A stretch of 64,000 nt of DNA from Azospirillum brasilense (lineage in GTDB: Bacteria > Pseudomonadota > Alphaproteobacteria > Azospirillales > Azospirillaceae). The stretch lies in NCBI RefSeq assembly GCF_022023855.1, contig NZ_CP059449.1, forward strand, positions 1,908,501-1,972,500, in the 5' to 3' direction. The notes under the pieces are model-generated. The model made no database searches. It saw nothing but the letters and a program-made list of their open reading frames with translations, and was not told where the DNA came from. Shown piece after piece: positions 24,725 to 26,868 of the stretch; positions within the stretch are counted from its first letter, which is position 1; every line of letters begins with the position of its first letter. A program made the translations under genes and the position numbers.

Positions 24725-24760
24725 AAAGCCCCCTTGCCGCCGGCAAGGGGGCTTTTCTTT
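24725..24760 (+). terminator. strong terminator, probably bidirectional
   Basis: AAAGCCCCCTTGCCG (24725-24739) pairs with CGGCAAGGGGGCTTT (24741-24755), about 15 bp, followed by T-rich sequence. It lies between two converging genes and has A/T runs on both sides, so it can serve the GH17-GT2 gene and the minus-strand gene at 24770. Confidence 0.9.
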
Positions 24761-24769
24761 GTGGACGGG

Positions 24770-25603
24770 TCAGCGCTTGCCTTTCTTGCCCTGGATGCTG
24801 GTGATCTGCTGGGAGGCAACGTTGCCTTGGCCCATGGCGGCGTTGAAGGCGCTGCCGACGTTGTTGAACTGGATGCCGCCGCTGGCCAGCGCCGTGGGCA
24901 GATGCGGCAGCGGACCGAAGTTGCTCATCACCGGATCGAAGAAGCCGTCGGGCGGCGGATTGCCGTTGCCCGTGGTCACGCCCGGCTGGGGCTTCGGAGT
25001 CGGAGCCTTCGCCTGCACCGGGGGCGGTGCCTGCGCCGGTGCGGGCGCCTGACCGACGGGGGCCGGCGCGGCCGCTTGCTCCGCGACACCACCACCAGCG
25101 ACGCCGCCACCGCCGGCGGACCCGTCCGCACCCTGGATGATGAACTGCTCCGTCACGTTGCTGTCGCCGAAGGACAGGGCCAGCGAGCTGTCGAAGTTGT
25201 TCACGATGAAGGGCGCGTCGATGAAGGTGAAGTTCGGCACGATGGGTTCCGGCGGCGGCTGGCGGCTGGCGGCCAGCGCTTGGCCCTTGTTGAAGCCGCC
25301 CAGGAAGCCGGCGTCGCCGCGGATCTTGGCGATGGCCTGCTGGTGCGAGGCCTGACGGCTGACGTTGGGGTTGGTCACCGTCGCCCCCGGAGGGGCGCCG
25401 CGCCGGGTGGCGTTGACGAAGACGGGCTGGCGCGGCAGCAGCGGCGGCATCCCCATGCCCATCCCCATCGACATGCCGACCGCCGCGCCCAGCTGCGGGT
25501 TGACGGAGAAGCCGCCGGCGTCCTGGGCGGCAGCAGTTCCGCCCAGCAGCGCCAGGGCGGCGATGCCGGACAGCAGCGGCGCGAAGCGGCGGATGCGGAT
25601 CAT
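24770..25603 (-). CDS. secreted low-complexity protein sharing a repeat motif with the gene at 26129
   Basis: A 277-residue protein with a signal peptide (about 1-26, ending TAAAQ), a Met-Gly run (43-52), a central region (120-158), a Gly/Ala/Pro/Gln-rich linker (160-220) and a basic end (GKKGKR). Residues 247-266 (NNVGSAFNAAMGQGNVASQQ) match the 21-residue repeat of the protein at 26129 at 11 of 20 positions by eye; a fainter copy may be at 135-153. Start is set by a GAGGAG site 9 bases upstream of the ATG. No family is recognised. It is the last of three small secreted-protein genes on this strand; a surface or fibre-like role is a guess. Confidence 0.8.
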   Translation of the reverse strand: MIRIRRFAPLLSGIAALALLGGTAAAQDAGGFSVNPQLGAAVGMSMGMGMGMPPLLPRQPVFVNATRRGAPPGATVTNPNVSRQASHQQAIAKIRGDAGFLGGFNKGQALAASRQPPPEPIVPNFTFIDAPFIVNNFDSSLALSFGDSNVTEQFIIQGADGSAGGGGVAGGGVAEQAAAPAPVGQAPAPAQAPPPVQAKAPTPKPQPGVTTGNGNPPPDGFFDPVMSNFGPLPHLPTALASGGIQFNNVGSAFNAAMGQGNVASQQITSIQGKKGKR

Positions 25604-25705
25604 GGCGGGGCTCCTCTGTTCGGCGGTGTGCGCTGATCCTAAGGCGGCCGACCGGGGAGCCGCTGTGAGGCGGGCCACAGGTGCCGTGTTTTATGCCGCT
25701 TGGCT

Positions 25706-26056
25706 TTACGCCTCTTCCTCAAAAGGGAAGTTTTTGCCGAAGGGATGGTCCGGCATCGGTGCGGCCTGCGGGGGCATCGGCGGCATGGGCATCGGCTTCA
25801 GGTCGGGCTGCGACGGGCCGCGCCGGCAGGCGGTGTGGCCATTGATGGTTTCGCAGGTCAGCGCGCCCGGCCCGGTCACGCAGGTCGTCCGGTCGTTGAC
25901 CGTCTGGCACGACAGCGAGCCCGAGCCGCGGCTGCACACCGTCTTCCCGTTGACCGTCTGGCAGGCGAGGTTTTCGGCGGCGGCGGTCTGCGGGGTTCCG
26001 GCCAGGGCCAGGATGGCGGCGAGCGCACCGAAGACCGGCAGGGCGAAGCGGAGCAT
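25706..26056 (-). CDS. secreted protein with three cysteine-pair repeats
   Basis: A 116-residue protein with a signal peptide (about 1-27, TAAAEN). Three 18-residue repeats follow, each with the pattern C-[QE]-T-[VI]-N-x-x-T-x-C: cysteines at 32/41, 50/59 and 68/77. Each pair could form a disulfide across a short beta-hairpin. The remaining 40 residues are Pro-Met rich and end in an acidic EEE. GGAGGA precedes the ATG. It lies 102 bases from the gene downstream and 72 from the gene upstream, so the three may form one unit. Function unknown. Confidence 0.8.
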   Translation of the reverse strand: MLRFALPVFGALAAILALAGTPQTAAAENLACQTVNGKTVCSRGSGSLSCQTVNDRTTCVTGPGALTCETINGHTACRRGPSQPDLKPMPMPPMPPQAAPMPDHPFGKNFPFEEEA

Positions 26057-26128
26057 GACGGCAGTCCTCCAGTGAGGAATCCGGAAAGGGGCGCCGCCTT
26101 GCGGATCGGCGGCGCCGGATGGGGTGGA

Positions 26129-26578
26129 TCACTGGGCCTTGAGACCAAACAGATTCTGCCCGGCGGCGTTGCCGATGCCGGCGGCGACGTTGGTCGTCAC
26201 ACCGACGTTGGTGTCGAGCAGGCCGCCCTTGCCGAAGCCGAAGGTGACGCCGGTGACGTTCTGCTTGGCCTTGTTGCCGATGCCGGCGGCGACGTTGGTG
26301 GCGACGCCGACGTTGGTGTTCACCAGCGACCCGCCGGTGCCCTGCTGCATGGTGAAGACGTTCTGCTTGGCCTTGTTGCCGATCCCCGCCGCGAGGTTCG
26401 TCGCGACGCCGACGTTGGTGCTGGAGAGGGAGGGCGCCGCGGCGAAGGGGCTGCCGAAGCCCGGCTGCATCATCATCGGGTTGACCGGCATGCCGCCGGT
26501 CTTGAGGTCGTTGGCGAAGGCGTGGGGGGCGGCGAGCAGCGTGGCGGCAGCGGCGGCGATCAGGGTCAGGCGGCGCAT
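26129..26578 (-). CDS. secreted protein with three 21-residue repeats
   Basis: A 149-residue protein with a signal peptide (about 1-23, AFAND) and a Met-Pro rich stretch. Three repeats of the form TNVGVATNxAAGIGNKAKQN begin at residues 54, 88 and 123, a period of 34-35 residues; the first two differ at one position. The regular Asn, Gly, Ala and Gln spacing recalls beta-solenoid or curlin-like repeats but does not match the curlin consensus exactly. A GGAGGAGA site precedes the ATG at 26576-26578. No cysteines are present. It is the first of the three-gene set; function unknown. Confidence 0.82.
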   Translation of the reverse strand: MRRLTLIAAAAATLLAAPHAFANDLKTGGMPVNPMMMQPGFGSPFAAAPSLSSTNVGVATNLAAGIGNKAKQNVFTMQQGTGGSLVNTNVGVATNVAAGIGNKAKQNVTGVTFGFGKGGLLDTNVGVTTNVAAGIGNAAGQNLFGLKAQ

Positions 26579-26712
26579 GGGCTGGGTCTCCTCCGGGGTG
26601 TGGGGCCGTGTGTGGCTCGATGTCCGTGGAGGAGAGGGTAGGCGGATGCCGCCCCCGCCGCTGTGGCCTGGGCCACAGTCGGAGGGTGATTCGGAGACGC
26701 TTGGGAAGTATT

Positions 26713-26858
26713 GCCCCCTCCCTAACCCTCCCCCACTCTCGGCGGACCGAAGGTCCGCCTGCCGCGTCAGCGCAAACCTATGGTTTGCGCGAGAGCTTCG
26801 CAGGGGAGGGGACCGTTCTCCCTCCCTCCCCTGCGATAGCGGGGGAGGGGCGGGGGGC
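26713..26858. repeat. intergenic inverted-repeat element, copy C, with two inner hairpins
   Basis: The ends GCCCCCTCCC and the GGGGGGC run form the outer inverted pair, and the CCCTCCCCTGCG / GCGGGGGAGGG core matches copies B and D. It is about 45 bases longer because of an insert with two perfect hairpins: GGCGGACC-GAA-GGTCCGCC (26741-26759) and GCGCAAACC-TAT-GGTTTGCGC (26770-26790). It lies between the secreted-protein genes and topB. Confidence 0.8.
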
Positions 26859-26868
26859 AAGCCGACGC

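Follow-up and report, generated by a model that had tools for sequence, protein, structure and literature searches.

Three described systems come closest to the genes considered here: Fap of Pseudomonas, curli, and the HfaABD holdfast anchor of Caulobacter. The figure of three repeats in FapC is taken from section 6 of PMC12392863. According to PMC6707917, HfaA forms multimers resistant to sodium dodecyl sulfate (SDS), and the placing of HfaA and HfaD depends on HfaB. Alphaproteobacterial variants of curli which do without several csg genes are on record (PMC3521004), and the word Azospirillum is absent from the main text of that paper. Congo red stains matrix components in general, and amyloid among them (PMC7804937). 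We describe here three adjacent genes, called A, B and C, in a 64-kb stretch of the genome of Azospirillum brasilense (hereafter the window: positions 1908501-1972500 of contig C1 in a 7.39-Mb genome). That the three genes form one functional set is strongly supported. We also consider it somewhat probable, judging from sequence comparisons, that their products make up an amyloid-like fibre on the surface and leave the cell through a channel, a CsgG/HfaB-like lipoprotein whose gene lies about 172 kb away. The system would work like Fap, curli or Hfa, and we file it as a member of none of them. Among the titles and abstracts listed, which are a part of the literature on Azospirillum amyloid, curli, biofilm and CsgG/HfaB, none describes it.

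A sequence-only reading of the window had announced three minus-strand open reading frames with signal-peptide-like starts and ribosome sites, belonging to no recognised family, and all of this was found again (Table 1). Judged by eye, each of A, B and C has a signal-peptide-like N-terminus and is preceded by a ribosome site of the GGAGG or GAGGAG type. Profile searches of Pfam and NCBIfam gave no convincing match, the best values (0.81 for A, 0.042 for B and 0.078 for C) being far below cut-off; the same holds for the 29 members of an A-family alignment in NCBIfam and Pfam and for the 38 of a C-family alignment in Pfam. Sequence searches of the PDB made with A, the A family, the A repeats or their profile returned no match at E<=10. 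Among the candidates scored, 39 of 633 were homologues of A, 17 of 51 of B and 101 of 7996 of C, and those with a name are called hypothetical or uncharacterized proteins, with the sole exception of one DUF4157 label. The middle gene does encode a different repeat, as had been said: B has three Cys-pair repeats of the type C-Q/E-T-V/I-N and six cysteines in its mature part. Of the three proteins B is the one whose role is least certain.

The idea of one functional set was to be judged, as fixed beforehand, on whether the genes are kept together in relatives, and they are. In a sample of 82 genomes of the family, 45 of which belong to the genus of the window, strong matches to A, B and C occur in exactly the same 34 genomes, all of this genus. 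Left out of this count are three genomes with a marginal match to B only (G067, G070 and G074, E 7.6e-4 to 0.0097; G numbers denote genomes and L numbers loci) and two with a marginal match to C only (G040 and G069, E 0.001 and 0.004). The order A-B-C on one strand is found in 32 of the 34 genomes, the genes being split over contigs in the other two (G030 and G032), and the A-B gap measures 49-166 nucleotides. The trio is moreover kept in two unrelated gene contexts, 17 genomes having it beside a beta-glucan synthase gene and 17 elsewhere. In this second context a Crp-type gene lies near C in 16 genomes, between B and C where the order is readable, and a caspase-type gene then follows in 14 of the 17; the remainder consists of short or broken contigs, except for one locus (L041) where neither a Crp- nor a caspase-type gene was seen. 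An empty-site test in four genomes whose trio is not beside the synthase (G033, G018, G044 and G022) found neither topoisomerase III nor A nor C within the same 10 kb. When named species genomes were scanned with the C alignment, 29 loci were obtained, 24 of Azospirillum type (one of them filed as Roseomonas) and five from outside (Caenispirillum, a Telmatospirillum metagenome-assembled genome (MAG) and three Rhodospirillales MAGs). An A-type gene stands upstream of C in all five outside loci, with a B-type gene between them in three (L117, L120 and L121).

A few loci of these surveys can be noted for themselves. A brasilense-type C (86% identity) occurs in NZ_QOKW01000002.1 (L098), filed as Roseomonas genomospecies 6 ATCC 49961, a name which may be wrong. 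Two genomes which carry the full trio (G010, contig C6, and G028, contig C15; L035 and L036) also have second A-B pairs and further A-like genes, with no C match, near glycosyltransferase genes. Ahead of A-B-C in one Rhodospirillales MAG, a 235-residue protein with repeats of the type GGGN-x-N-x-A-S/T-G is encoded (L121:4235-4942), possibly another fibre subunit.

The three motif copies which had been announced in A are present as three 27-residue repeats, with residues 54, 88 and 123 as their first. We built a repeat profile from 97 copies (78 distinct) in A and 39 homologues; since the repeat pattern used fixes several columns, the invariance of N8, G12, N15 and Q19 is partly due to construction. 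Searched against the window's own genome, this profile finds 12 places at E<=1, namely three in A, eight in two paralogues of A and one in C. A recount by eye confirmed that the copy at the end of C agrees at 11 of 20 positions. Its standing against shuffled sequence had also been set beforehand as a test: with 24.7 bits, this C-terminal copy beats all of the 2875 shuffles scored, none of which reached its score. The score of the degenerate copy in the middle of C was reached by 1762 of 2671 shuffles. The A and C families can be aligned end to end (hhalign probability 96.7, E 3.3e-10), which makes C a divergent sister of A that carries an additional conserved domain, RGDAG; C is predicted to be a minor, nucleating or anchoring subunit. 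The two paralogues of A are near-identical solo genes with four repeats each (C5:369052-369567 and C1:1263384-1263896, that is about L008:5050-5572 and L009:5376-5900) and likely reflect a recent duplication. No B or C was seen alongside them in the stretches read, and each stands behind an identical TGTGGCCTGCGCCACA palindrome.

With Fap, the trio shares a predicted major subunit, A, with three imperfect repeats, a homologous second repeat protein and a predicted stacking of beta-arches. The core N-[V/I]-A-A-G-x-G-N of the A repeats is common to all three repeats of Pseudomonas FapC, and the scores of these three with the A profile were reached by only 2 of 2885, 8 of 2999 and 5 of 2975 shuffles. 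Relative to the full FapC motif, gasGN-h-G-h-N-h-aaG-x-gNqQN, A has the core in common, above the level of shuffles, with a different spacing. The structure predicted for A consists of three strand-turn-strand units, and a Foldseek search with this model gives FapC as its first match and a CsgA fibril as its third. However, A is shorter than FapC and has Q at the fourth and the tenth residue following the second N, and the exporter linked to the trio is CsgG/HfaB-like. Genes of the fapABCDEF type (FapF porin, FapD protease) were not recognised in the loci read, where no dedicated search was made for them.

The likeness to curli lies in a major and a homologous minor subunit, in G-x-x-N-x-A within the repeat and in an exporter which is distantly CsgG-like. 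Scored with the A profile, CsgA and CsgB remain at the level of shuffles; curlin repeats (PF07012) were found neither in A, B and C at E<=10 nor in the 29 A or 38 C family members at E<=0.1; and csgE, csgF and csgH were not seen in the loci read, no family search having been made. We rejected membership in curli, as there is no curlin match and the CsgG match is below its cut-off. The nearest working model for the trio and its lipoprotein is, by analogy, HfaABD, where a CsgG-superfamily outer-membrane lipoprotein serves small secreted proteins. The trio's exporter differs from HfaB by extra peptidoglycan-binding and DUF4384 domains and by a score below the HfaB cut-off, and no NCBIfam holdfast model matched A, B or C at E<=10.

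On the strength of its sequence and distribution, the lipoprotein is the likely partner of the trio. A DUF4384 lipoprotein is encoded near C in Caenispirillum (L118) and in one MAG (L117), the former with a weak match to CsgG (E 0.021) and a domain for peptidoglycan binding. Its counterpart in the window's genome, at 61% identity, is C1:2106649-2108163. Around this gene (L124) are those of two DUF4399 proteins, an OmpA protein, a small secreted protein, a DUF1150 protein, a DUF4384 protein with a FecR-like N-terminus (by eye), a CHASE2-cyclase, a caspase-FGE protein and a Crp regulator, and in one genome (G033, L129) most genes of this kind adjoin C. The lipoprotein scores 29.4 bits (E 4.3e-7) with the NCBIfam HfaB model NF037935, whose cut-off is 300, and 17.4 bits (E 0.0029) with Pfam CsgG, PF03783, whose cut-off is 20.8, thus falling below both; aligned with E. 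coli CsgG, it gives an hhalign probability of 85% (E 6.1e-6). The profile PF03783 finds nothing in the window's genome at E<=0.001 and matched in 4 of 14 control genomes. The structure model of the lipoprotein is poor (predicted local distance difference test 55, the CsgG-like part being largely under 50), and Foldseek with this model shows no CsgG among the best 50 matches listed. A PDB search with three lipoprotein sequences gave peptidoglycan-binding matches only (E 0.2).

Of the 34 trio genomes 33 have an orthologue of the lipoprotein (E<1e-260), against 0 of the 11 genomes in the genus that lack the trio (Fisher p 1.2e-9, a rough value which ignores relatedness). The trio genome without one is a draft, G006, which matches the DUF4384 neighbour. 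As for the trio-less genomes, G023 has a homologue at 36% identity, in a locus (L131) where no A-like gene was recognised, and G040 has a DUF4384-only match. In the second context 15 of 17 genomes have the lipoprotein gene on the contig of C, at a distance of 7.1-10.5 kb, and the other two have it on a different contig. The lipoprotein occurs without matches to A, B or C in all five g13 genomes (57-59% identity) and in G066, G050 and G047 (42-45%); at three such loci (L130, L132 and L133) different small secreted repeat-like proteins are encoded within about 4 kb. Throughout the class, the lipoprotein is found in 9 of 289 genomes at E<=1e-20, the window's own included; in four of the nine only the DUF4384 end matches. 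Small secreted repeat proteins stand beside it in two of these loci, from two other families (L161:10593-11057 and L162:10987-11394), with a different repeat, GGVKIGG.A.QTT.V...LG.GSEA.T.IG, suggesting that one type of exporter goes with several types of repeat. A further locus (L163) has Crp, CHASE2 and FecR-type genes and no obvious repeat protein, and at a partial match (L164) no repeat protein, Crp, CHASE2 or FecR-type gene was seen. In the partner locus, the small CWQDG protein was considered as a chaperone of the CsgC/CsgH kind and rejected, its one PDB match being unrelated (E 0.34). Linked to this locus are proteins in which a caspase domain (Peptidase_C14) is joined by bacterial Ig-like and FGE-sulfatase ones (L124:14407-17046 and L037:3014-5536).

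In the lipoprotein locus two transcription units carry a rare palindrome, putatively of CRP type, which also marks A, C and both paralogues of A. In the window TGTG-N8-CACA has two sites, one upstream of A and one upstream of C. The form TGTGR-N6-YCACA has 13 sites in the whole genome, against 9 for a backwards control, and six of the 13 lie upstream of A, C, the two solo paralogues, OmpA and the FecR-type/cyclase operon. A Poisson estimate for the four palindromes outside A and C is 2e-13, a rough figure since relatedness is ignored and the 250-nucleotide windows were chosen by the analyst. At other loci a site is found within 450 nucleotides of A in 29 of 33 cases and of C in 31 of 31, for a background of 0.074 per 450 nucleotides which includes the sites of the system. 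The loci without a site near A are those of G003, G026, G035 and G012 (the last with only 182 nucleotides available); the C sites of G012, G003 and G035 are more than 380 nucleotides away and may belong to another gene. No palindrome site was found in L118, L130, L161 or L162. The Crp proteins keep GEIALLDGEPRTADAVA and VSRES(I/V)NK, which presumably fit cyclic-nucleotide binding and TGTG recognition. The remaining seven of the 13 sites are elsewhere. Three of them are A+T-rich TGTGA-N6-TCACA sites which adjoin a different family of small, ribbon-helix-helix-like genes (L145, L146 and L147, at C2:54734, C2:1060853 and C2:1942211), perhaps a separate autoregulated family.

The sequence-only reading had seen in the trio perhaps a surface fibre or matrix made with the beta-glucan synthase, whose gene is adjacent and convergent in the window. 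An orthologue of this synthase (at least 75% identity) is found in 42 of the 45 genomes of the genus, including 9 of the 11 without the trio. Of the 34 trio genomes, half (17: the window and 16 of 35 fetched loci) have it next to the trio; 16 others carry it on a separate contig or some 3 Mb off, and one (G041) lacks it. A strong hairpin also separates C from the synthase. The synthase, which occurs also where the trio is missing and is not regularly its neighbour, was rejected as a partner, and a set of matrix proteins acting with it is in our opinion most improbable. The link to the glucan synthase is unsupported and the fibre is retained, by inference from the FapC-like core, the predicted beta-arches and the CsgG/HfaB-like partner.

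Two other explanations dispense with a long fibre. A and C could form with the lipoprotein a short outer-membrane multimer which tethers polysaccharide, in the manner of the holdfast anchor: HfaB is the better-scoring named relative of the lipoprotein in curated libraries, the latter has a peptidoglycan-binding domain and an OmpA neighbour, and PMC6707917 gives SDS-resistant HfaA multimers and the placing of HfaA and HfaD by HfaB. We find this unlikely, as the NCBIfam holdfast models match none of the three proteins at E<=10, the FapC-like core fits stacking, and the extra copies of A (the two solo paralogues, and a five-repeat D gene in G033) suggest a bulk polymer. The FapC-like Asn/Gln/Gly core of each repeat and the co-inheritance with the lipoprotein speak also against envelope proteins, soluble or in the periplasm, that would belong to a cyclic-nucleotide stress regulon and whose repeats would make a monomeric beta-solenoid and no polymer. 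SufB/SufD-type beta-helices do score at least as well as CsgA and FapC on the A model, and the regulon does include caspase, FecR and DUF4399 genes; nevertheless we hold this explanation to be quite improbable.

Under the reading which we prefer, that of an exported amyloid-like fibre, the CHASE2-linked cyclase of the lipoprotein locus would raise a cyclic nucleotide, and the Crp of the same locus would sense what its neighbour makes and activate A-B, C and the envelope module. Sec would take the three proteins out of the cytoplasm, and the lipoprotein, held to the peptidoglycan by its own binding domain and by OmpA, would let them pass the outer membrane. A would be a three-layer building block stacking into a fibre via three beta-arches, C would start, anchor or tether this fibre, and B, with its cysteines in disulfides, would act as an accessory. 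We infer all of these stages, from Sec export and lipoprotein passage to FapC-like beta-arch polymerisation, B disulfides and Crp induction. A larger claim, which we advance tentatively as a fair possibility short of a probability, is that Azospirillum and its relatives possess here a complete undescribed amyloid-secretion system: a peptidoglycan-anchored CsgG/HfaB-like channel (DUF4384, OmpA partner) would export the FapC-type A and C and the Cys-pair B, with a cyclic-nucleotide circuit of its own (CHASE2-cyclase, Crp, TGTGG-N6-CCACA) and a caspase-FGE protein as built-in processor.

Azospirillum is a crop inoculant whose attachment and flocculation have been studied mainly as polysaccharide traits. 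If true, a defined protein-fibre regulon would give specific genes to delete. A CsgG-superfamily channel would then serve FapC-type and not curlin repeat subunits, Fap-like subunits would be united with a curli/holdfast-like exporter, and the independence of exporter and repeat-type evolution would become testable. The palindrome is an immediate handle on regulation.

Table 1. Features of the A-B-C locus, in positions of the window
Feature	Position	Strand	Description
Gene A	26129..26578	-	149 residues; predicted secreted, three FapC-like repeats; predicted major fibre subunit
Gene B	25706..26056	-	116 residues; predicted secreted; three Cys-pair repeats, Pro-rich tail
Gene C	24770..25603	-	277 residues; sister of A, predicted secreted; two A-type repeats and a conserved domain, RGDAG-L-GF-GQ-LA-SR
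A repeat 1	26339..26419	-	residues 54-80; 51.6 bits (repeat profile)
A repeat 2	26237..26317	-	residues 88-114; 48.3 bits (repeat profile)
A repeat 3	26132..26212	-	residues 123-149; 40.7 bits (repeat profile)
A-type repeat ending C	24788..24865	-	14.5 bits, E 0.38 (own-genome repeat-profile search)
Degenerate A-type repeat, middle of C	25130..25201	-	not significant alone; favoured by the C-family and A-C family alignments
CRP-like palindrome TGTGGCCTGGGCCACA	26662..26677	.	upstream of A
CRP-like palindrome TGTGAGGCGGGCCACA	25664..25679	.	upstream of C
Hairpin in the A-B gap	26090..26116	-	perfect G+C stem of 9 base pairs; absent from terminator-scan output
Strong hairpin, interval between C and convergent glucan synthase	24727..24753	.	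absent from terminator-scan output

The promoter scan found no sigma-70 site, and the terminator scan gave one terminator-like site for 1.3 expected. Judged from its sequence, the hairpin between A and B is possibly a partial terminator or the 3' end of a message of A only, and the one beyond C is likely a terminator common to C and the glucan synthase. Finally, a G+C-rich element with repeated and inverted CCCTCCCCTGCGAAGC-like pieces (window positions 26730-26860) separates the topoisomerase gene from the promoter region of A.
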